Position numbers and translations under genes: made by a program. 33,715 nucleotides of DNA from NCBI RefSeq assembly GCF_029265375.1, contig NZ_JAJUJJ010000029.1, forward strand, positions 1-33,715, written 5' to 3'. Positions 10,512 through 21,564 of this stretch are shown here, in pieces (the stretch's first letter is position 1; each line of letters starts with the position of its first letter). The notes below the pieces were generated by a model. It saw nothing but the letters and a program-made list of their open reading frames with translations, ran no database searches and had not been told where the DNA came from. Origin of the DNA: Nesterenkonia sp. (GTDB taxonomy: Bacteria; Actinomycetota; Actinomycetes; Actinomycetales; Micrococcaceae).

Positions 10512-11567
<1,056 letters not shown>

Positions 11568-12098
11568 TTATTTGAAGGCTTTGTCGGTCATGGATTTGGC
11601 CCCGCGGGAGATGGCCAGCGTTCCGGAGCGGACGATCTCGCGCACTCCGAAGGGCTCGAGCACTGAGAGCAGGGCGTCGAGCTTATCGGCGGCGCCGGTG
11701 GCCTCCACGGTCAGCGAGTCGGTGGAGACGTCCACGATCTTGGCGCGGAACAGCTCCACCGCCTGGGTGACCTGCAGCCGGGCGGCGGCGTCGGCGCGGA
11801 CCTTGATCAGCAGGTGCTCGCGCTGCACGGAGGCGGCCGGCTCCAGCTCGATGATCTTGATGACGTTGATCAGCTTGTTCAGCTGCTTGGTGATCTGCTC
11901 CAGCAGGTGGGGGTCGGCATCGACCACCACGGTGATCCGGCTCAGGCCCTGAACTTCGCTGGGGCCGACGGCGAGTGAGTGGATGTTGAAGGCCCGGCGG
12001 GCGAAGAGGCCGGAGACTTTGGCCAGCACCCCGGGGACGTCTTCGACCAGCACGGAGAGGGTGCGGCGGGCCTCGGGTCCGGCGTCGGCTGCTGGCAT
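11568..12098 (-). CDS. ilvN: Acetolactate synthase, regulatory small subunit
   Basis: Regulatory partner of IlvB; it binds valine through an N-terminal ACT domain and increases activity of the large subunit. The 176 residues begin with LSVLVEDVPGVLAKVSGLFARRAFNI, the ACT signature, and continue into the second ferredoxin-like domain typical of the longer actinobacterial subunit (about residues 85-165). The ATG at 12098 starts two bases after the ilvB stop. Its ribosome site, GAGGAGG, is embedded in the last codons of ilvB, so translation of the two subunits is probably coupled, which helps keep the complex in ratio. ilvC follows after 30 bp. Confidence 0.96.
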   Translation of the reverse strand: MPAADAGPEARRTLSVLVEDVPGVLAKVSGLFARRAFNIHSLAVGPSEVQGLSRITVVVDADPHLLEQITKQLNKLINVIKIIELEPAASVQREHLLIKVRADAAARLQVTQAVELFRAKIVDVSTDSLTVEATGAADKLDALLSVLEPFGVREIVRSGTLAISRGAKSMTDKAFK

Positions 12099-12100
12099 GG

Positions 12101-13978
12101 TCAGTCCTCCTCGTCGAAGTCGGGGGTCAGGTTGCGGGCGACTTGGATGTCGCTGTTGGAGACCCCGGCCGGGACCATGGGCCAGACCATGGAGTCGCGG
12201 GAGACCACGAAGTCGATGACCACTGGGCGGTCGTTGATCTCAAGCGCCTGGGCGATGACTGAGTCGATGTCCTCCTCGCGTTCGCAGCGCAGGCCGGCGC
12301 AGCCGTAGGCCTCAGCCAGGGCCACGAAGTCCGGGATCCGCACCACCTGTTCGCCGGAGGGGCTCACCGCGGTGTTCAGGTGCGTATTGGAGTAGCGGGA
12401 CTCGTAGAACAGGGTCTGCCACTGCCGCACCATGCCCAGCGAGGAGTTGTTGATGACCGCGACTTTGATGGGGATCTTGTTGATCGCGCAGGTGGCCAGC
12501 TCCTGGTTGGTCATCTGGAAGCAGCCGTCGCCGTCGATGGCCCATACGGTGCGGTCCGGGTTTCCGACCGCTGCGCCCATGGCCGCCGGCACCGCGTAGC
12601 CCATAGTGCCCAGGCCGCCGGAGTTCAGCCACTGCCGGGGCCGTTCGTAGCCGATGAACTGGGCTGCCCACATCTGGTGCTGACCCACGCCGGCGGCGTA
12701 GACGGCCTCGGGGCCGGAGGCTTCGCCGATGCGCTGGATGACTTTCTGCGGGGCGATCTTGCCGTCCTCCGGTTCGGTCCAGCCCAGCGGATAGGTCTCG
12801 CGCAGCCGGTTCAGCCGGGTCCACCAGGGGCTGTAGTCCGGCGCGCCGGTGCTGGCGGTGACCTCCCGCAGGGCGGCGGTCAGCTCCGGGATGATCGCCT
12901 CCAGTGACCCGACGATCGGCACATCGGCGTACCGGTTCTTGGAGATCTCGGCGGGGTCGATGTCGGCGTGGATGACCTTGGCCTCCGGGGCGAAGGTGTC
13001 CAGCTGGCCGGTGACCCGATCGTCGAAGCGGGCGCCGAGGGTGATCAGCAGATCCGCCTGTTGCAGGGCGGCGACCGCGGAGACGCTGCCGTGCATGCCG
13101 GGCATCCCCACGTTCAGCGGGTGGGAGTCCGGGAAGGCGCCGCGGGCCATGAGCGTGTTGACCACCGGGGCGCCGGCGGTCTCAGCGAGTTCGCGGAACT
13201 CCTGGTGCGCCTCGGCCTTGATGATGCCCCCGCCGATGTAGAACACCGGCCGGTGGGCTGCGGCGATCATGCGGGCGGCCTCGCGGATCTGCTTGGCGTG
13301 GCCCCGGGTGACCGGCTTGTACCCGGCCAGGCCCAGGCGCGGGGGCCAGGAGAACGTGGTGGTGGCGGCCTGGGCGCTCTTGGTGATGTCCACCAGCACC
13401 GGTCCCGGCCTGCCGGAGGAGGCGATGTGGAAGGCCTCGGCCATCACCTGGGGGATCTCATCGGCGTCGGTCACCAGGAAGGTGTGTTTGGTGATGGGGG
13501 TGGCGATGCCGACGATATCGGCCTCTTGGAAGGCGTCGGTTCCGATGACGCTGGCGTTGACCTGCCCGGTGATGGCCACCATGGGAACTGAGTCCATATG
13601 CGCATCAGCCAGGGGGGTGACCAGGTTGGTGGCCCCGGGCCCGGAGGTGGCGAAGCAGACGCCGACCTTCCCGGTGGCCATGGCATAGCCCTGGGCGGCG
13701 TGGCCGGCGCCCTGTTCGTGACGGACCAGGATGTGGTTGATCACCGGGGAGTCCATCAGCGGGTCGTAGGTCGGCAGGATGGCGCCGCCGGGGATGCCGA
13801 ATACGTCGGTGACTCCGAGCTCTTCGAGGCTGCGCACAATGGCCTGGCTGCCGGTCATGGTCTCCGGCGCTGTGCTGCGTCCGGGGCCGTAGAGGCGCGC
13901 ATCAGCGGTGGTGATGCGCCCGGCCCGCTCAGGATGCGCGGCGGCCGCTGCGGGGCTTTCCTGTGTGGGAGTGCTCAT
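12101..13978 (-). CDS. ilvB: Acetolactate synthase, catalytic large subunit
   Basis: Thiamine-diphosphate enzyme that condenses two pyruvates to acetolactate, or pyruvate with 2-oxobutyrate, the first shared step for branched-chain amino acids. The 625 residues carry the catalytic glutamate E88 in [15 protein letters not shown], the central FAD-binding domain, and the ThDP/Mg motif beginning [12 protein letters not shown] and ending near VAVINN. About 40 N-terminal residues before the first domain are low-complexity. The ATG at 13978 has an AGGAAGA ribosome site. It heads ilvB-ilvN-ilvC and is preceded by a leader with a branched-chain leader peptide and an attenuator. Pyruvate could come from the pyruvate kinase encoded further on. 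Confidence 0.97.
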
Positions 13979-14030
13979 GAGTTCTTCCTGATCCCTTGAG
14001 TAGTGTTCCGACCCGTCCGATGCCCCTGCA

Positions 14031-14081
14031 CAGACGAAACCCCGGCTCGCGGAGTCCCTGTCCAGGGCCCTCGTGCCGGGG
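14031..14081 (-). terminator. ilvB attenuator: terminator hairpin and competing antiterminator arm
   Basis: On the minus strand CCCCGGC (14081-14075) and GCCGGGG (14046-14040) form the terminator stem around an inner CCCTG/CAGGG hairpin, followed by the U-rich TTTCGTCT. A second copy of GCCGGGG (14131-14125), in the last codons of the leader peptide, can pair with the same CCCCGGC arm. Pairing that way would prevent the terminator. GCCCC (14137-14133) can in turn sequester that copy. This is the four-segment layout of ribosome-mediated attenuation. Confidence 0.75.
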
Positions 14082-14119
14082 TGAGCTGTGGTATGCGTCA
14101 GTGCGTGCCAACGGGCCGC

Positions 14120-14173
14120 TCATGCCCCGGCGGGGGCGATGACGGGTACTACTACCGCTAGCATCTGGCGCAT
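14120..14173 (-). CDS. ilvB leader peptide (branched-chain attenuator)
   Basis: A 17-codon reading frame, MRQMLAVVVPVIAPAGA, upstream of ilvB. It contains Leu, three consecutive Val, then Val-Ile, all products of the operon. The Leu codon is CTA and the three Val codons are GTA; both are rare in a genome this rich in GC, which would sharpen stalling. The ATG at 14173 lies six bases after a -10-like AACCAT that is 17 bases from TTGACT, so the leader itself appears leaderless; an in-frame ATG at 14164 is the alternative start. Its stop codon is next to the antiterminator arm, so a ribosome that finishes the peptide would cover that arm and allow termination, while one stalled at the Val codons would leave it free. 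Sequence-only inference; the peptide has no other expected function. Confidence 0.8.
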   Translation of the reverse strand: MRQMLAVVVPVIAPAGA

Positions 14174-14179
14174 ATCCCC

Positions 14180-14208
14180 ATGGTTGCCGCCGGTGTGAGG
14201 GAAGTCAA
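14180..14208 (-). promoter_or_regulatory. Promoter of the ilvBNC operon
   Basis: TTGACT (minus, 14208-14203), a 17-base spacer, and AACCAT (14185-14180), followed after six bases by the first ATG of the leader peptide. The -35 is a good match and the -10 a moderate one (three of six positions). It lies just after the ilvD stop at 14260, so ilvBNC has its own start of transcription. Confidence 0.6.
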
Positions 14209-14259
14209 TGCTCTGTCAGGGCGTCTCATCATGTGGACCGCACTGCTGCCGGCGGGTGC

Positions 14260-16032
14260 TCAGCCGCAGTAGGCGCCCTCTGCCGCGGAGCGCACCAGCT
14301 TGGCGTACTTGCCCAGCACCCCGGTGGTCACATAGGGCGGCAGCGGGGCCCAGTCCGGATCTGCCCGGCGGCCGGCCAGCTCATCCTCGTCGACCAGCAG
14401 GTCGATGGTGCGAGCGGCGATGTCCACCCGGATCCGGTCGCCGTCGGCGATATAGGCGATGGGGCCGCCGTCGACCGCTTCGGGTGCGATATGCCCGATG
14501 CACAATCCGGTGGTGCCCCCGGAGAAGCGGCCGTCGGTGATCAGCAGCACGTCTTTGCCCAGGCCTGCGCCCTTGATGGCACCGGTGATGGCCAGCATCT
14601 CGCGCATACCGGGGCCGCCCTTGGGGCCCTCGTAGCGGATGACGACGACGTCTCCGGGCTGGATGGCTCCGTCCTCCAGGGCTTTCAGGGCCGCCTGTTC
14701 GCGTTCGAATACGCGGGCGGTTCCTTCGAAGACTTCGGCGTCGAAGCCGGCGGACTTCACCACGGCTCCTTCAGGAGCCAGGGAGCCGCGCAGCACGGCG
14801 ATGCCGCCGTTGTGGTGCATGGGGTTGTCCAGGCTGCGGATGATGGTGCCGTCGATATCGGGGGGATTGATGTCGGCCAGGTTCTCCGCCAGGGTCTTGC
14901 CGGTGACGGTCAGGGCATCTCCGTGCAGAAGCCCGGCGTCGAGCAGGGCGCGCATGACCACCGGCACTCCGCCGACGCGGTCCACATCGGCCATCACGTG
15001 CTGCCCGAAGGGCTTGAGGTCTCCCAGGTGGGGGACGCGGTCCCCGATGCGGTTGAAGTCCTCCAGGGTCAGGTCCACCTCGGCTTCGCGGGCGATGGCC
15101 AGCAGATGCAGCACGGCGTTGGTGGAGCCGCCGAAGGCCATGGTGACGGCGATGGCGTTTTCGAAGGCCTCGCGGGTGAGGATGTCGCGGGTGGTGATGC
15201 CTCTGCGCAGCAGCTCGACGACGGCTTCGCCGGATTTGTGCGCGTAGTAGTCGCGCCGCCGGTCGGCCGAGGGTGGGGCGGCTGAGCCCGGCAGGGACAG
15301 GCCCAGCGCCTCCCCGATGCACGCCATGGTGTTGGCGGTGTACATGCCGCCGCAGGCTCCCTCCCCGGGGCAGATGGCACGCTCGATGACGTCCAGCTCG
15401 GCCTCGGTCATGGTGCCGCGTGCGCAGGCTCCGACGCCTTCGAAGGCGTCGATGAGCGTGACTTCCTTCTCGGTGCCGTCGGCGAAGCGGGCCACGCCGG
15501 GCATGATGGTTCCGGCATAGAGGAACACGCTGGCCAGGTCCAGGCGAGCGGCGGCCATGAGCATTCCGGGCAGGGACTTGTCGCAGCCGGCCAGCAGGAC
15601 CGAGCCGTCCAGCCGCTCGGCCTGCATCACAGTTTCCACGCTGTCTGCGATGACCTCGCGGGAGACCAGGGAGTAGTGCATGCCCTCGTGCCCCATGGAG
15701 ATGCCGTCGGAGACGGAGATGGTGCCGAACTCCAGGGGGTAGCCGCCGCCGGCGTGGACGCCCTCCTTGGAGGCTTTGGCCAGCCGGTCCAGGGAGAGGT
15801 TGCAGGGGGTGATCTCATTCCACGAGCTGGCGATGCCGATCTGTGCCTTGGACCAGTCGTCGTCGCCCATGCCGACGGCTCGCAGCATGCCGCGGGCAGG
15901 AGCGCGGGTATAGCCGTCGGTGACCTGCCAGGAGCGCGGCTTCTCCGGCGTGGAGGGGCCGGTCACCGGCTGCGGGCGGGAGGCGGGCTGCGCCGCCTGC
16001 TGGGACGCGGAGGTGGAAGTGGTCTCTGCCAT
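14260..16032 (-). CDS. ilvD: Dihydroxy-acid dehydratase
   Basis: Dehydrates dihydroxyisovalerate and dihydroxymethylvalerate to the oxo-acids, the third shared step of valine and isoleucine synthesis. It uses an iron-sulfur cluster. The expected cysteines are seen in [24 protein letters not shown] and [14 protein letters not shown]. From the ATG at 16032 the protein has 590 residues with a ~45-residue N-terminal extension rich in Ser, Gln and Pro. The frame is open eight codons further up (16056), but TACGAT lies exactly at -12 to -7 of the 16032 ATG and there is no ribosome site for either start, so I choose the leaderless 16032. ilvB follows after a 281-bp leader. The gene diverges from the DUF2243-CtaG gene. 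Confidence 0.96.
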
Positions 16033-16038
16033 AGCCAG

Positions 16039-16044
16039 ATCGTA
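16039..16044 (-). promoter_or_regulatory. Leaderless -10 element of ilvD
   Basis: TACGAT on the minus strand ends six bases before the ilvD ATG. A TGAC-containing -35 candidate (CTGACG, 16069-16064) is 19 bases upstream, longer than ideal. Confidence 0.45.
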
Positions 16045-16185
16045 TACCCGCCGCACCGGGCCGCGTCAGGCCCACCTCCCTCGTTCTGCTATGTGAGACG
16101 GCGGCAGAGAACTGCGGCTTCTCAGGCTGTGCGCAGCACCTTCACGGGGTCCTGTCATGCGGCAGCCGCAGCCGGCCGCGGCCCC

Positions 16186-16214
16186 TTGACCGTGGTGCGG
16201 GGCGGTTCTAGCGT
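16186..16214 (+). promoter_or_regulatory. Leaderless promoter of the DUF2243-CtaG gene
   Basis: TTGACC (16186-16191), a 17-base spacer, TAGCGT (16209-16214), then six bases and the ATG at 16221. Spacing and match are close to ideal and there is no ribosome site. A promoter this intact argues that the gene downstream is, or recently was, expressed. Confidence 0.65.
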
Positions 16215-16220
16215 CGAGAG

Positions 16221-17405
16221 ATGAGCCGAATCGAGCCTGGTCAGCGGGCTGCCGGAGGGCCGCGGAATCGCCGTCTCTCGGTGCTGGCCGCCAGCATGGT
16301 GGGGGTGGGCGTGATGGCGGCGGTGGATGAAATCGTCTTCCACCAGATCCCGGCCTGGCATCACTTCTACGATCTGTCCACCCCCCGAGATCGGTCTGCT
16401 CGCCGACGGACTGCTCCATGCCGGCCAGCTGGTGCTGCTGGTGGCTGGATTCTTCATGATCGCGGAACTGAGGCACCGCCGCGACCTGGCAGCACGTTCT
16501 GCGTGGGCCGGCTTCTTCCTCGGCGCCGGCGGCTTCCAGGTGTTCGACGGGCTGGTCAACCATAAGGTGCTGCGCATCCACCAGATCCGTTATGACGTGG
16601 AGAATCTCGGCTGGCAGCTCGCCGCGGCAGCGCTGGCGCTGCTGCTGGGCCTCTACATGATGCTGCTGGTGCGCCGCCAGCTGCAGGTCCCCCGCCGCTG
16701 GAGCCGGTGGCGCACGGCGAGCTGGACGGCAGGCTCACTGCTGATCGCTGCCGGGATCTCGCCGATCATCGGCGGAACCGCTGAGGGCCACATGGCCGAG
16801 CATCTGCTGGTGGGCATGTACGGTCCGGTGCTGCTGGTGCTGACGGCACCGGTGACTCTGGCGCTGGGTGCTGCTCCGCCTCGCTGGCGACGCCGCTTCG
16901 CCGGGCTGCTGCAGCGGCGCATCCGTTCACCGCCGCCGGTCTGCATATTGTGCCGCTGTTCCTGCTGTACCTGACCCCGCTGTACGCGGCGGCGATGAGC
17001 AGCGCGGCAGGCCATATGGTCATGACGCTGCACTTCGGCCTGGCCGGGTGCCTCTACGCCTGGGCGATAGCGGGGCCGGACCCCATGCGCCGGCGGCCGT
17101 CAGTGCCGCTGCGCGCCGTGGTGCTGGTTCTCAGCGCCGGGCTGCATGCCTGGCTGGCCAAGCTGGTCTACGCCCGGGCAGAGACCCTGCACGCGGCGGT
17201 GATGCATACCCCCGAGGATCTGCGCGGCGCGGCGGTGCTGATGTACTACGGCGGCGACGGCGCCGAGCTGATGCTGGCGGTCGCACTGTTCGCCGGGTGG
17301 TCCCGGGACCGGGTCAGGCGGCATCGGCGCGACGCCGCGAGACGTGCAGCACCGCTCCGCCGAGTGCAATCAGCCCAAGCGCTCCCAGCAGGACCGCGGC
17401 GATAG
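16221..17405 (+). pseudogene. DUF2243-CtaG fusion membrane protein, two frameshifts
   Basis: An integral membrane protein read in three pieces. Residues from 16221 start as DUF2243 (VDEIVFHQIPAWHHFYDLST). At the run of six C at 16381-16386 the conserved sequence moves to another frame (PEIGLLADGLLHAGQ to RRFAGLLQRR). Near 16905-16925 it returns to the first frame (AAGLHIVPLFLLYLTPLYAAA). The second half is the caa3-type cytochrome oxidase assembly domain CtaG (HMAEHLLVGMYGPVLLVLTAPVTLALG), which in this family helps deliver copper to the oxidase. One base extra in the first run and one missing at the second site would restore a 394-residue protein with about ten membrane segments. Two compensating indels look like sequencing errors, but real decay cannot be excluded. 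The 3' end overlaps the convergent xylanase gene by 92 bp. Confidence 0.8.
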
Positions 17406-20400
17406 TCGCACCGGTGGCGGCAAGTCCCGCGCCGTCGTCGTCCTGATCGGATGCACCATCTGGTGCGGCCAGCACAGTCACCTCGGTCCAGCCCAGCAGC
17501 TCACCGTCGGAGGTGTAGACGGCGAAGCGGTGCTCGCCCTCGGCGTCGGCCGGCACGGTGACGGTGATGATCCCGTCCTCATCCGCGGTGACCTCGCCGA
17601 GGTCGGCCGGCTCGGAGAAGAACCAGGACCGCACGGTCTGGCCAGCGGCTGCTGCCCCGAGGGCGGCCTGCATCGGCTCGCCGGCGCGCACCGGGTCGGT
17701 GAGGATCTCGACGTCGCCGCGATTGGCGTCGGTGAGCTCATCGGCGTCCGGGGGCCAGGGGCCGTCCTGGTCAGCCGGGTCCGTGGGCGACGGATCCGTG
17801 GGTTCGGGATCGGTGGGCTCCGCGGGGTCCGTCGGATCTGCCGGGTCGGTGGGATCCGGATCCGTGGGGGCTGGGTCTGTCGGTGCGGGATCGATGGGAT
17901 CCTCCCCCTCTGCCAGCAGTCGGATAACGCCCCACCGCTCAGTGGACTGGTACCCGTTTCCGGTGGGGTCCGCCCAGGTGGTGACGAGCCGGGCGCCGTC
18001 GTGCGAGTCATTGACCTGGACGTCGAAGCCGTGGATGCTGCCCGCTCCCCCGTACTCACGCAGGTCGATGGCGGCCTGGACGATGTAGCCGTCCTCGGTG
18101 ATGGAGGTGGCCGACTCCAGCTGTTCGAGCTGGAACTGCTCGTCGCCGGACCCGACGGAGACCTCGTTCTCCGCGGAGATGCGGAACTGGAAGTCGTACT
18201 GCTCGGAGAGCAGATGGTGGCCGTCGCGGGTGGCGGTCCGGTAAGGGCCATTGCGCTCATTGCCCAGGTCCAGGAAGAACTCCACGGAGTCCTGAACCCA
18301 GGGATCGGAGGCGGAGACATCCACGTCCGGGTCTGTGACATCGGCCAGCAGGTGCAGAGTGCCGTTCTCCCAGAGGGTGTAGACCTCCGCGGTGGCACCT
18401 TCACGGGCACCGGTTTCGATCTCAGTCTCGGTGACCAGTGAGGTGGCCTCCGTCCATGCGTCGCTGAGCTCGGCGTTCAGCTCCGGAGCGGCGTCGGCCT
18501 CGGGCGCCTCGTGGTAGCTGAGCGGCTCCACCAGGCTCAGCGTGCCGTTGAGCCAGGAGTCGTCGTCGGCGTGCAGGTCGATCGTGAGGCTCTCGCCCTG
18601 GCTGAGTCCCTCGATCTCGGCCAGCGTCACGCCCTGCGGGCTGAGCTCGTAGGTGTCGCCGTCGTGCTCCACAGTGACTGACTCCGCCTCAGACTCCACG
18701 TGGAAGACCAGGCCCTCGGGGCTCCAGCGGAGCTGGAACTCGGCGGTGCCGCCTTCGGTGGAGTGCAGCGGCAGCTGAGTCCAGTAGCTCTCCGGGTCAG
18801 CCTCGGCGGCGTCGTCGTCATGGGCGAAGACCACAGCCCGGTTCTCCCGCGGGGGGAGCTCCCCGCCGATAATGCCGGTGTAGGCCAGCTTGGGGCTGAA
18901 GTCATCGTTGAAGATGAGCGGAAGCTGGGCCGCACGCCAGCTGCGGCCGTCGTTGAGGCCCCAGACGGCCACTGAGTCCAGCTGGTTGGTCTCGGCCCAC
19001 TCGCGGAAGAGGTCGAAGGCGTCCCGGTAGTGGTAGGCCTGGTCGATCAGCAGGCCCTCGGTGGGGCTGTCGCCGATGGTGATGTCCAGCTCGGTGACCA
19101 GCTGCGGGATGCCGGGGAAGGCGGCCTCCACGTCCTGGAATGCCTGCCGCAGGTTGTCGATGGGCATCGAGAGGTTGAGGTGGAACTGGTGGGCGAAGCC
19201 ATCCACCGGGACGCCGCGGTCGAAGAGCCGCTCGGTCAGCTCGATCATGCGGCCCCGCTTGGCCGAAAGCTCGGTGTTGTAGTCGTTGATGTACAGGGCC
19301 ACCGGGCGGTCGGCGCTCGGGTCGGCGTAGACGCCGTTGAAGTAGTGCTCCGCGTACTCGAAGGCGGCGTCCACATAGGTCTCATCGCCCCAGGCCTGGT
19401 ACCAGTTGGAACGCCGCATGCCGTCGGAGTAGGAGGCCCCATCATCGATGACCTCGTTGACCACGTCCCAGGCGACCACGGGATTGGTGTCTGAGCCGAA
19501 GGGCCCGTACTCCTCGGCGATGGCCTCGGCCACACTGCGGATGTGGAACTCCATACGTTCATCCATCTCCGCCTGCGAGGAGACGTCGAAGAACCAGTCC
19601 GGGGTTTGGGAGTGCCAGACCAGCACGTGGCCGTAGACATCCAGATCATGCTCCACGGCGTAGTCCAGGATGGCTTCGGCCTGGGGGTGCATGCCGAAGG
19701 TGTCCAGTCCCTCGCCCGAGTACCAGGCCTCGGGCTTCATGTGGTTCTCCGCGGTGACCCGGTCGAAGTGGTGGTCGACCACCTGAGCGGCGGTGCCGGT
19801 GGTCTCGCGCTCGTCGATGGCCACGCCGAGCGGGAAGGTCACCGTGTCCTTCAGCGGGGTCAGCGAGTCGTCGAAGTCTTCGTCGACTCGGGTGACTTCG
19901 ATGTCGTCGACGTAGAAGGTGGAGGTCACGCCGGGATCGTCGTTGTCGCAGGTGGTCTCGAAGTAGATAGTCAGCTCCTCGGCCTCAGCGGCGGTGAACC
20001 GCTGTTCGACCTGCACCCACTCCGAGTTGGAGAGTCCGCTGAACTGGCCGAGGGTCTGGTAGCTGGTGGATCCGCCGGAGGTCACTGCGGCCGCGAGCAA
20101 GATGTCATCGGTCTCCTCCCCGTCGGCGAAGCGGACCCAGGCGGAGAGGTCATACTGCTGGCCGGCGGCGAGCGCCTCGGTGGCGTCGGCGCCCATGCCC
20201 TGCCCCTGATGGGTGCGGTCGGTGACGACGGCGGAGTACTGACCCTGGTGGGCCTGGGAGTCGGTGACGGCGACGGTGTGCTGGTCCTCGTTGACGTAGC
20301 GCGGTCCCCAGGCGCCGAGTTCGCCGTCCTCGAAGTCGTGGCTGAGGGATTCGGGGCTGTCGGCGACCGGGCCGGAGTCGCCGTCGTCGTCCTCTCCCGG

Positions 20401-21516
20401 CTGGTGCTCGATGGTGACCGAGTCGATGAGGAACTCGGTGTCTGCGCCCTCGGCCTCCACGTAGAAGACCTGGGCCGGTGCGCTGGATTCGGCCTCGTAC
20501 TCACCGGTGAGCTCCACCCATTCGTCGGCTCCCACGATCTCGCGGCCGGAGACCCACGGATACTCGTTCTCCGCGGAGCCCGGAACGTGCATGGAGGTGC
20601 CGATGGTCTCAGTCCCCTCGGCGTCGGCCGGCAGTTTGGCCCACGCTGTGATGCGGAAGGTCCCGGAGTTCTCGAATTCCTCCATGGGCAGCTCGGGGCC
20701 GTGCCAGCCGGCGCTGCGCCCGGTGGTCAGCAGGGCCTGCTCGCCTTGGTGGGCGTCATTGCTGAGCTCCACGGAGGCATCTCCGCGGCCGCGCCATGGC
20801 TCCACGGTCTCTTCAAAGTCGTAGCTGGCCAGCTCAGTCCACTCGCCGCCGTCGCTGGTGCCGTCGTCGTCGTTGCTGTCCTCGTTGCTTCTGTCCTCGC
20901 TGCCGGCGTCGTCGTTCTCCTCCCCGCCGTCGTCGCCGTCGGATTCCTCCTGCGCTGCCGGCTGCAGCGTGAGGGAGGCGGAGCGGATGTAGAAGTCATA
21001 GGCGTCGAGACCCTCGACGTCGGGCAGGCCAGTGTAGGCGCGGAACGCGTCGAGGTCTGTCTCCTCGGTGATCTCAAAACTGCTGGTCACCTCGGTCCAG
21101 TCCGAGGCATCCACGGCAGCCGCCTCACCCCATTCATAGGTGTGGCCTGCGCCGTCGTCGTGAGCGACCCACCGAGCCTCCACTGCGTCTTCCACCTGGT
21201 CCGAGAGCCGGACCTCCGCGGTGTAGATGACCGTATCGCCCGGCTCGGCCTGGTCGGCGAGGACCCCGTGGGGCGACTGGATGCCGTGATAGTCCGCGCC
21301 GCGGTCCACCTGAAGCACGGTTTCGCCCTCCAGCTCGGTGAAGCTGATCCGCTCGGCTCCGCCGTTGTCCCACCACTGGCCCAACTCGCCGGTGGAGAAC
21401 TGTGAGCTGAGGACCTCGACGGGAGCGGAGGGCTCGGTCTCTGCAGTGGCGGCTGCCAGCGGAGTGGCGGCAAGTACCGCTGCTGTGACCAGGGCCAAAC
21501 GTGCACGTGTACTCAT
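17314..21516 (-). CDS. Secreted, wall-anchored GH10 endo-1,4-beta-xylanase
   Basis: A 1400-residue extracellular enzyme that cleaves the xylan backbone. Order of parts: signal peptide (1-25, ending AAATA); three carbohydrate-binding modules resembling CBM4/9/22 (about 32-188, 226-373, 391-544), the first two separated by a very acidic linker; the GH10 catalytic domain (about 553-883) with AENHMKPEAW, the acid/base E688 in WDVVNE and nucleophile E809 in TELDI; a CBM9-like module (about 1003-1201); a Pro-Thr-Asp repeat linker; an Ig-like domain; and a C-terminal sorting signal LAATG (1365-1369), hydrophobic segment and RRR tail, the pattern used by class E sortases. I chose the ATG at 21516, not 21522, because GAGGG lies six bases before it. 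The strong acidity fits a salt- or alkali-tolerant host. Confidence 0.95.
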   Translation of the reverse strand: MSTRARLALVTAAVLAATPLAAATAETEPSAPVEVLSSQFSTGELGQWWDNGGAERISFTELEGETVLQVDRGADYHGIQSPHGVLADQAEPGDTVIYTAEVRLSDQVEDAVEARWVAHDDGAGHTYEWGEAAAVDASDWTEVTSSFEITEETDLDAFRAYTGLPDVEGLDAYDFYIRSASLTLQPAAQEESDGDDGGEENDDAGSEDRSNEDSNDDDGTSDGGEWTELASYDFEETVEPWRGRGDASVELSNDAHQGEQALLTTGRSAGWHGPELPMEEFENSGTFRITAWAKLPADAEGTETIGTSMHVPGSAENEYPWVSGREIVGADEWVELTGEYEAESSAPAQVFYVEAEGADTEFLIDSVTIEHQPGEDDDGDSGPVADSPESLSHDFEDGELGAWGPRYVNEDQHTVAVTDSQAHQGQYSAVVTDRTHQGQGMGADATEALAAGQQYDLSAWVRFADGEETDDILLAAAVTSGGSTSYQTLGQFSGLSNSEWVQVEQRFTAAEAEELTIYFETTCDNDDPGVTSTFYVDDIEVTRVDEDFDDSLTPLKDTVTFPLGVAIDERETTGTAAQVVDHHFDRVTAENHMKPEAWYSGEGLDTFGMHPQAEAILDYAVEHDLDVYGHVLVWHSQTPDWFFDVSSQAEMDERMEFHIRSVAEAIAEEYGPFGSDTNPVVAWDVVNEVIDDGASYSDGMRRSNWYQAWGDETYVDAAFEYAEHYFNGVYADPSADRPVALYINDYNTELSAKRGRMIELTERLFDRGVPVDGFAHQFHLNLSMPIDNLRQAFQDVEAAFPGIPQLVTELDITIGDSPTEGLLIDQAYHYRDAFDLFREWAETNQLDSVAVWGLNDGRSWRAAQLPLIFNDDFSPKLAYTGIIGGELPPRENRAVVFAHDDDAAEADPESYWTQLPLHSTEGGTAEFQLRWSPEGLVFHVESEAESVTVEHDGDTYELSPQGVTLAEIEGLSQGESLTIDLHADDDSWLNGTLSLVEPLSYHEAPEADAAPELNAELSDAWTEATSLVTETEIETGAREGATAEVYTLWENGTLHLLADVTDPDVDVSASDPWVQDSVEFFLDLGNERNGPYRTATRDGHHLLSEQYDFQFRISAENEVSVGSGDEQFQLEQLESATSITEDGYIVQAAIDLREYGGAGSIHGFDVQVNDSHDGARLVTTWADPTGNGYQSTERWGVIRLLAEGEDPIDPAPTDPAPTDPDPTDPADPTDPAEPTDPEPTDPSPTDPADQDGPWPPDADELTDANRGDVEILTDPVRAGEPMQAALGAAAAGQTVRSWFFSEPADLGEVTADEDGIITVTVPADAEGEHRFAVYTSDGELLGWTEVTVLAAPDGASDQDDDGAGLAATGATIAAVLLGALGLIALGGAVLHVSRRRADAA
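17772..17892 (-). repeat. Pro-Thr-Asp repeat linker in the xylanase
   Basis: About 40 residues of degenerate DPxPT / DPAxPT units near residues 1209-1249. It is a rigid, extended spacer of the kind that lifts catalytic modules off the cell wall. The DNA is repetitive (recurring gatccg/gggtc units) and could slip during replication or assembly. Confidence 0.85.
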
Positions 21517-21564
21517 CTGCATCCCTCAAGGTGGTCGAGTGGCTTCCGGCGCGTCCCAGATCTG

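Follow-up and report, generated by a model that had tools for sequence, protein, structure and literature searches.

The window, by which we mean the whole 33,715-nucleotide stretch of Nesterenkonia DNA that was analysed, carries the ilvBNC operon on its minus strand. Directly 5' of ilvB lies a candidate attenuator made up of a promoter, a small open reading frame rich in branched-chain amino acid (BCAA) codons and a set of complementary RNA arms, and an element of this kind is found 5' of ilvB in all 30 Nesterenkonia genomes of our genus set (the window's included). From the end of the U-rich tail at 14031 it is 52 bases to 13978, where the ilvB ORF begins. The ilvD gene lies upstream of the leader on the same strand and ends 51 nt before the -35 element in the window; an ilvD 3'-end pattern directly precedes the leader in 22 of the 30 genomes. 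The features are listed in the direction of transcription.

14223..14238, minus strand: operator-like site GTCCACATGATGAGAC, proposed for an IclR-type (NdgR/LtbR-like) regulator from its conserved position
14203..14208, minus strand: -35 element TTGACT (TTGAC in 30/30 genus genomes)
14180..14185, minus strand: -10 element AACCAT, spacer 17 (AAnnAT-like hexamer at the same place in most relatives)
14120..14173, minus strand: leader peptide ORF MRQMLAVVVPVIAPAGA*, putatively leaderless, ATG 6 nt past the -10 element (ORF found in 30/30 genus genomes)
14165..14173, minus strand: 5' strand of the start-codon helix P1, AUGCGCCAG (predicted fold)
14147..14161, minus strand: candidate control codons, CTA at 14161-14159 and GTA GTA GTA at 14155-14147 (codon statistics and stall simulation)
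14133..14145, minus strand: segment 1, the 5' strand of the stop-codon hairpin P2 (predicted fold)
14125..14131, minus strand: segment 2, first GCCGGGG, putative antiterminator arm (GCCGGG in 30/30, GCCGGGG in 27/30)
14116..14128, minus strand: 3' strand of P2, which holds the stop codon and overlaps segment 2 (predicted fold)
14093..14101, minus strand: 3' strand of P1, CUGACGCAU (predicted fold)
14075..14081, minus strand: segment 3, CCCCGGC, shared arm (exact in 28/30)
14040..14046, minus strand: segment 4, second GCCGGGG, 3' arm of the putative terminator (exact in 27/30)
14031..14039, minus strand: U-rich tail UUUCGUCUG of the putative terminator (shared unchanged by 14 short leaders and with a single base different in the fifteenth)
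12101..13978, minus strand: ilvB, acetolactate synthase large subunit, first gene after the attenuator (NCBIfam TIGR00118 and PRK07789 over cut-off)
11568..12098, minus strand: ilvN, acetolactate synthase small subunit (TIGR00119 over cut-off)
10512..11537, minus strand: ilvC, ketol-acid reductoisomerase (TIGR00465 over cut-off)

On the minus strand, TTGACT (14208-14203) is followed after 17 nt by AACCAT (14185-14180) and, 6 nt further on, by an ATG at 14173, as an earlier note on this DNA had described. The ORF that opens there (14173-14120) encodes the peptide described in that note, 17 residues with Leu, Val-Val-Val and Val-Ile, through the mid-ORF codons CTA GCG GTA GTA GTA CCC GTC ATC. 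The two copies of GCCGGGG, of which the first ends 2 nt before the leader TGA stop, and the single CCCCGGC were likewise as claimed, and all are near-invariant in the 30 genus genomes: the first copy is GCCGGG in L014, L016 and L032, the second differs in L018, L031 and L033 (GUCGGGG), and the middle arm reads CCCCGGU in L018 and L033. The second GCCGGGG (14046-14040) is followed by TTTCGTCTG, which runs to 14031. The order of a 7-mer, its complement, the same 7-mer and a T-rich tail occurred in none of 5000 dinucleotide shuffles of the stretch.

The leader, its GTA and CTA codons, the GCCGGG arm, the partner arm and the terminator stem were found upstream of ilvB in every genus genome, which excludes chance, each of the 30 BCAA leaders holding at least one GTA and at least one CTA; relatives lacking the Val codons and both arm copies, which the earlier note had named as evidence against attenuation, were not encountered in the genus. 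The genomes fall into two clades, clade A with 15 short leaders, the window's among them, that measure 128-150 nt up to the tail end, and clade B with 15 long leaders of 182-189 nt. Two leaders, L028 and L030, retain GCCGGGG in a different reading frame (codons CCG CCG GGG GAA, encoding PPGE and not PAG or AGG), and this frame shift under a constant 7-mer suggests that selection acts on the RNA rather than on the peptide. Of the terminator with a U-rich run proposed in the earlier note, the stem and a T-rich tail (at least 5 T in 9) are kept in 30/30 genomes; the window's tail is only moderately U-rich, and a simple consensus scan of 13900-16400 returned no terminator. The same scan returned no sigma-70 promoter; AACCAT matches TATAAT at 3 of 6 positions, and the terminator loop is longer than the scan allows. 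At cut-off, Rfam gave no family at the leader and only three tRNA matches in the window; at E<=10 it gave seven weak, unrelated matches in 13950-14300 and no ilvB motif (ilvB-II may not be in Rfam 15), and neither an ilvB ppGpp riboswitch nor a T-box appeared at cut-off or among those seven.

The distance from the -35 element to the leader ATG is 35-37 nt in 30/30 genus genomes, which adds comparative support to the leaderless start put forward in the earlier note. From this promoter spacing, RNA polymerase would start at or beside the A of the ATG, and the leader peptide would therefore be translated without a ribosome-binding site. The true start might instead lie upstream, for example in ilvD read-through, with the leader translated from an ordinary site or never. 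The proximity of the ilvD end to the -35 element and a GGGG found 2 nt before the ATG in the window fit such a transcript; that GGGG, however, is too close to the ATG for a Shine-Dalgarno site. The uniform -35 to ATG distance in the genus and the recurrence of a 5-8 nt gap between the -10 element and the ATG in 22 other genera argue against it, as do two relatives, Corynebacterium glutamicum, where 1 nt separates the transcription start from the leader AUG (Morbach 2000, via PMC11857589), and Streptomyces lividans, whose ilvL is described as leaderless by RNA-seq (PMC8079986). We regard a leadered transcript as highly improbable.

Codon usage of the leader

The earlier note had pointed to CTA and GTA as codons rare in high-GC genomes, and the counts bear this out. 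Across the genus leaders GTA makes up 76 of 118 Val codons (GTC 22, GTG 20, GTT 0), CTA 43 of 54 Leu codons and ATT 12 of 14 Ile codons. In the genus ilvB genes (n=30, two of them fragments) GTA accounts for 26 of 1658 Val codons and CTA for 4 of 1121 Leu codons, and in seven genes of the window the figures are 5/337 and 0/335. The P values of Fisher tests on the codon counts are not to be taken literally, as they come from related genomes and from 122 Val codons (starts were then un-normalised). In all 30 leaders the earliest CTA is either the fourth or the fifth codon. Among the loci of 30 of the 46 tRNA matches plus the window, there is one tRNA-Val(UAC) gene and one tRNA-Leu(UAG) gene. It is established that an attenuator may rely on the codon read by the most starvation-sensitive isoacceptor, CUA in the leu leader being an example (PMC1183508).

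The bias was also seen outside the genus. In 47 distinct leaders of other genera GTA makes up 36 of 168 Val codons and CTA 23 of 69 Leu codons, compared with 35/1395 and 5/908 in the ilvB genes of 23 relatives; CTT is enriched too (27/69 vs 24/908). For these family counts, and for the duplex test described below, identical leaders were counted once and nine loci were left out (L138-L140, L152-L154 and L157-L159, which have no convincing leader or belong to genus g3).

Ribosome-mediated attenuation could operate here with a GTA/CTA/ATT bias that stems from RNA pairing and not from tRNA sensing. The Ile codons fit this explanation: ATC and ATT are both read by one tRNA-Ile(GAU), so that the use of ATT over ATC is unexplained by isoacceptors, and RNA structure or slow decoding may contribute. 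In addition, leader codons lie within predicted helices, most of all in clade B, with the GTC at codon 11 inside P2, and A-ending codons are frequent for some other amino acids (Glu GAA 9/15, Gln CAA 10/28, Gly GGA 14/45), a mixed pattern. Against it, the leaders show no A-ending preference for Ala (GCA 7/75), Pro (CCA 0/46), Thr (ACA 1/10) or Arg (CGA 5/36), and GTA and CTA are also enriched in the 47 other-genus leaders, whose sequences are different. We consider an origin of the bias in RNA pairing unlikely, if deserving of some weight.

RNA folding and the simulated switch

The free RNA of the window's leader folds with a z of -2.29 relative to shuffles. Given the alignments only, RNAalifold recovered three elements for each clade: P1, a hairpin at the stop codon, and the terminator. 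In clade A the predicted structure consists of P1 (the start-codon region paired with CUGACGC before the terminator), P2, whose 3' strand contains the stop codon and within which segment 2 lies, a small hairpin of 3 bp within the GUA run, and the terminator; in clade B it consists of an extended P1, the stop-codon hairpin, further helices and the terminator. The clade B leaders (L018-L031 and L033), upstream of ilvB, are about 40 nt longer and carry an extra hairpin with two-sided changes (A2 columns 83-105), and in most long-clade leaders a GUGA loop holds the stop codon.

In clade A, 90.9% of the cells were paired, 6 pairs and 11 cells were changed on both sides and the covariation score was 0.116, values of which none was reached in 500 shuffles; the 14 further pair types were reached by 38/500. 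The two-sided changes comprise three pairs each in P1 (of its 8 pairs) and P2. Those of P1 sit in codon 3 and not in the start codon, and the first P1 pair is formed in 1 of the 15 clade A leaders. The clade A terminator is nearly invariant, 7 of its 8 stem pairs never varying. In clade B, 90.9% paired cells, 13 changed cells and a score of 0.139 were again reached by 0/500 shuffles, and the 4 two-sided pairs (317/500) and the further pair types (414/500) were ordinary; all four two-sided pairs lie in the stop-codon hairpin and none in P1. Because the aligned rows are related, all these pair-change numbers are supportive and are not probabilities. They back the hairpins, not the antiterminator.

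P1 was clearly better than shuffles (<= 15/300) in only 16 of the 30 genus genomes, and the best duplex was not always at the P1 site (e.g., L010, L017, L028, L030 and L033). When P1 strands were swapped between leaders, the outcome was weak: 20/2000 over both clades, 290/2000 within clade A and 1733/2000 within clade B. For the antiterminator, the 6-8 bp core, GCCGGG(G) with the CCCCGG arm, is able to form in 30/30 genomes. The covariation of the 7-bp arms that the earlier note had suggested examining cannot decide the matter because the arms hardly vary, and none was observed for the core in either clade. With its extension, the antiterminator had a paired percentage no better than that of shuffled partners (451/500), and own pairs did no better than swapped ones (354/2000 in clade A, 1984/2000 in clade B, 219/2000 together); a possible extension of the helix in the window, UGAGC with GCUCA, thus gains no support from counts or swaps.

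The switch was simulated with equilibrium folds and assumed ribosome footprints, masking the RNA to +12 of the A-site codon and computing pairing on the transcript up to segment 3. With the ribosome stalled at the first GUA, the predicted antiterminator probability exceeded 0.5 in 30/30 leaders (mean 0.98). A stall at codon 5 gave this result in 13/15 clade A and 15/15 clade B leaders, and a stall at the last GUA in 17/30 (15/15 in clade A, 2/15 in clade B); in the other 13 clade B leaders that last stall hides segment 2, so that only the first codons can work there. With the ribosome at the stop codon the antiterminator exceeded 0.5 in 0/30, a result that is largely geometry as the mask covers segment 2. 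For the terminator, the value was above 0.5 in 30/30 full-length molecules, both ribosome-free and with the stop codon occupied by a ribosome. In the absence of a ribosome the antiterminator exceeded 0.5 in 3/15 clade A and 11/15 clade B leaders, with a value of 0.01 in the window, and the folds therefore predict a default-off state in clade A, the window's own, but not in clade B. When nothing but the P1 strand was masked, the clade A count was 5/15, against 3/15 in free RNA.

Attenuation, as the earlier note had proposed it, thus gains comparative support from the conservation in 30/30 genus genomes and from the stall simulation. We put at roughly 0.86 the probability that the ilvBNC element is a leaderless ribosome-mediated transcription attenuator sensing charged tRNA-Val(UAC) and tRNA-Leu(UAG), a reading that draws on sequence comparison and modelling and for which we infer the 5' end, leader translation, termination, the amino-acid response and regulator binding. 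A ribosome stalled at the CUA/GUA cluster (codons 5-9) would cover part of segment 1 and the start-codon strand, leaving the first GCCGGGG to pair with CCCCGGC, and transcription would go on. A ribosome that reaches the stop codon would cover the first GCCGGGG, CCCCGGC would pair with the second GCCGGGG, and the terminator so formed would end transcription near 14031. In the short-leader clade, P1 and P2 would keep the ribosome-free RNA in the terminating form.

It might be argued that the hairpin at 14081-14040 is a constitutive or partial terminator, which ends ilvD read-through or lowers ilvB transcription, and that the small ORF is incidental. The terminator stem is indeed the best-conserved part of the element (7/8 pairs invariant in clade A), and the ilvD 3' end lies directly upstream in 22/30 genomes. 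Against this stand the retention of a GTA/CTA ORF and of the GCCGGG arm in 30/30 genomes, the 7-mer retained in L028 and L030 despite the change of frame, and a promoter positioned throughout the genus to start at the ORF; we hold a constitutive terminator to be very improbable.

Within the attenuation reading, the leaderless start may itself be part of the switch: only an AUG-started transcript would load a ribosome, and the element would both sense Val/Leu and insulate ilvBNC. P1 would later seal the start codon, such that the first ribosome alone decides, and any ilvD read-through RNA, in which the AUG is internal and has no ribosome site, would adopt the terminating form as its default. 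This extension is suggested by the two-sided changes in 3 of 8 P1 pairs (clade A), by the terminator favoured in all 30 ribosome-free full-length folds, by the antiterminator disfavoured in 12/15 clade A prefixes and by the ilvD end upstream in 22/30 genomes. However, in 11/15 ribosome-free prefixes of clade B the antiterminator is the favoured form and P1 masking alters few clade A genomes, and we advance insulation tentatively, as a speculation that is rather doubtful.

Related systems and distribution beyond the genus

Leaderless ilvB leaders and ilvB attenuation of this kind have been described before (PMC11857589, PMC8079986). For Corynebacterium, Mycobacterium and Streptomyces, Seliverstov and others had predicted that ilvB is preceded by a BCAA leader peptide with a terminator (PMC1262725), and experiments in C. 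glutamicum and M. tuberculosis back the attenuation logic (PMC11857589, PMC13236596). In C. glutamicum, changing three valines to alanine abolishes valine-dependent expression and loss of the ATG cuts expression by 80% (Morbach 2000, via PMC11857589). The Corynebacterium ilvBNC attenuator (IlvL MTIIRLVVVTARRLP; ilvB-II motif) resembles the present one, as described in PMC11857589 and PMC10272879, in its position upstream of ilvBNC and, on the reading proposed above, in its leaderless start, its Leu-Val-Val-Val control codons, its terminator and antiterminator and its 5' helix including the start region (H1/P1). The window differs in that its peptide ends PAGA, not ARRLP, its putative antiterminator arm is a GCCGGGG repeat and its stop codon lies in a predicted hairpin; the strong GTA/CTA bias was measured only for Nesterenkonia and the family.

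The S. lividans ilvBHC attenuator likewise has a leaderless BCAA leader (ilvL, MRTRILVLGKRVG) and a terminator upstream of ilvB (PMC8079986), but its peptide is of the KRVG/KRVA type, which many Micrococcaceae leaders resemble and those of the window's genus do not. The function of the Streptomyces ilvB attenuator is contested in S. coelicolor, where altering candidate ilvB control codons was without effect, as told in PMC1262725. The M. tuberculosis ilvB1NC attenuator has a BCAA-rich uORF, LVVI control codons, a terminator and antiterminator and reporter support (PMC13236596); it is likened to ours by description, a leaderless uORF start not being stated in the available text of PMC13236596.

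The Salmonella leu leader has a conventional ribosome site. Its attenuator is similar in using rare CUA control codons, whose replacement by CUG lowers sensitivity (told in PMC1183508), but it belongs to an enterobacterial leu operon and its RNA is unrelated. A search of the open-access literature, with subscription journals mostly outside its range, returned no account of a Nesterenkonia or Arthrobacter ilvB attenuator. The locus brings to the known systems a new lineage with an extreme codon bias, together with two predicted structures: a hairpin at the stop codon and a helix at the start codon, the latter analogous to the Corynebacterium H1/P1. With it, a regulatory principle that experiments support elsewhere would reach the Micrococcaceae. 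The 30 natural variants, which include a changed reading frame beneath an unchanged RNA arm and an extreme synonymous bias toward rare codons, make it testable in one short RNA how leaderless initiation competes with co-transcriptional folding and whether control codons are picked for the most starvation-sensitive isoacceptor.

The family sample comprised 63 loci of 30 genera, out of 142 other-genus genomes searched (genus g29 was left out). A strict leaderless test, which asks for a promoter, a 5-8 nt gap from the -10 element to the ATG and a BCAA-rich ORF of 8-25 codons, was passed outside the genus by 41/63 loci in 22/30 genera, compared with 1/3150 shuffled regions. It failed 22/63 family loci, including every locus examined of g2, g9, g11, g12, g13, g14, g20 and g23. 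Within the genus only 12/30 pass, because many leaders break the test's rules on the hexamers, the spacer or three successive BCAA codons. A less strict listing, scored in favour of promoters, gave BCAA leaders, many of the xxVVVLxKRVA type, in several genera that fail the strict test; for g11, g12 and g14 (L152-L154, L157-L159) it gave no convincing BCAA leader upstream of ilvB, and loss of the attenuator is possible there. Among named organisms (80 loci, of which two were too short, leaving 78 examinable), 33/78 pass the strict test, including Nocardia, Rhodococcus, Mycobacterium, Lentzea, Actinomadura and Brevibacterium; none of the passes among these 78 loci lies outside the Actinobacteria.

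A start-codon helix common to the family was not supported, the mean duplex z being -0.33 for 47 leaders and 0.16 for 188 control 14-mers (P 0.098). A z below -2 was found in 7/47 leaders and 2/188 control 14-mers. In L123, L134, L148, L160, L161, L174 and L175, all of other genera, the first leader bases are strongly complementary to a stretch past the stop (z -2.4 to -4.0), and sealing of the start codon may have arisen more than once.

An operator-like site upstream of the promoter

The earlier note overlooked the stop-codon hairpin, the start-codon helix and an operator-like site upstream of the promoter. At this site [TC]GAGAC occurs at -19 to -21 from the -35 element in 30/30 genus genomes, and in the sequences displayed a half resembling GTCC or TTCC comes before it. 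Of 28 leuC upstream regions, 25 contain TGAGAC or GTCTCA, compared with 68/560 shuffles; a related two-sided site is present in 20/28 loci and the exact palindrome GTCTCACATAATGAGAC in 4. In the window's genome, the one checked for this, the leuC site is ATCTCACATAATGAGAC and a divergent IclR-family gene adjoins it. Genome-wide, the operator pattern with at most 2 mismatches showed no excess (118 places vs 130 for the reversed control), and its sole exact match was the ilvB site. The conserved position and the leuC counterpart support a candidate operator. In Streptomyces, NdgR recognises GTCC...GGAC-like sites ahead of ilvB, ahead of ilvD and in the ndgR-leuC interval (PMC4340878), and an NdgR/LtbR motif is given in PMC8222616; the likeness of our site to NdgR sites is one of analogy, as the half-site differs. 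By this analogy an IclR-type regulator probably acts on the ilvB promoter from 14223-14238.

Before ilvD, GTCTCACATAGCAGAAC at 16083-16099 (minus strand) resembles the leuC palindrome and may be one more site, the third, for this IclR-type regulator. At 16030-16044 (minus strand) TACGAT is followed after 6 nt by an ATG (16032), so that ilvD itself looks leaderless; this apparent start lies 24 bases inside the ORF that opens at GTG 16056. Near the ilv genes, 17314-21522 (minus strand) encodes a large protein of several domains, among them a GH10 xylanase domain and modules of the CBM4/9 and CBM9 types.
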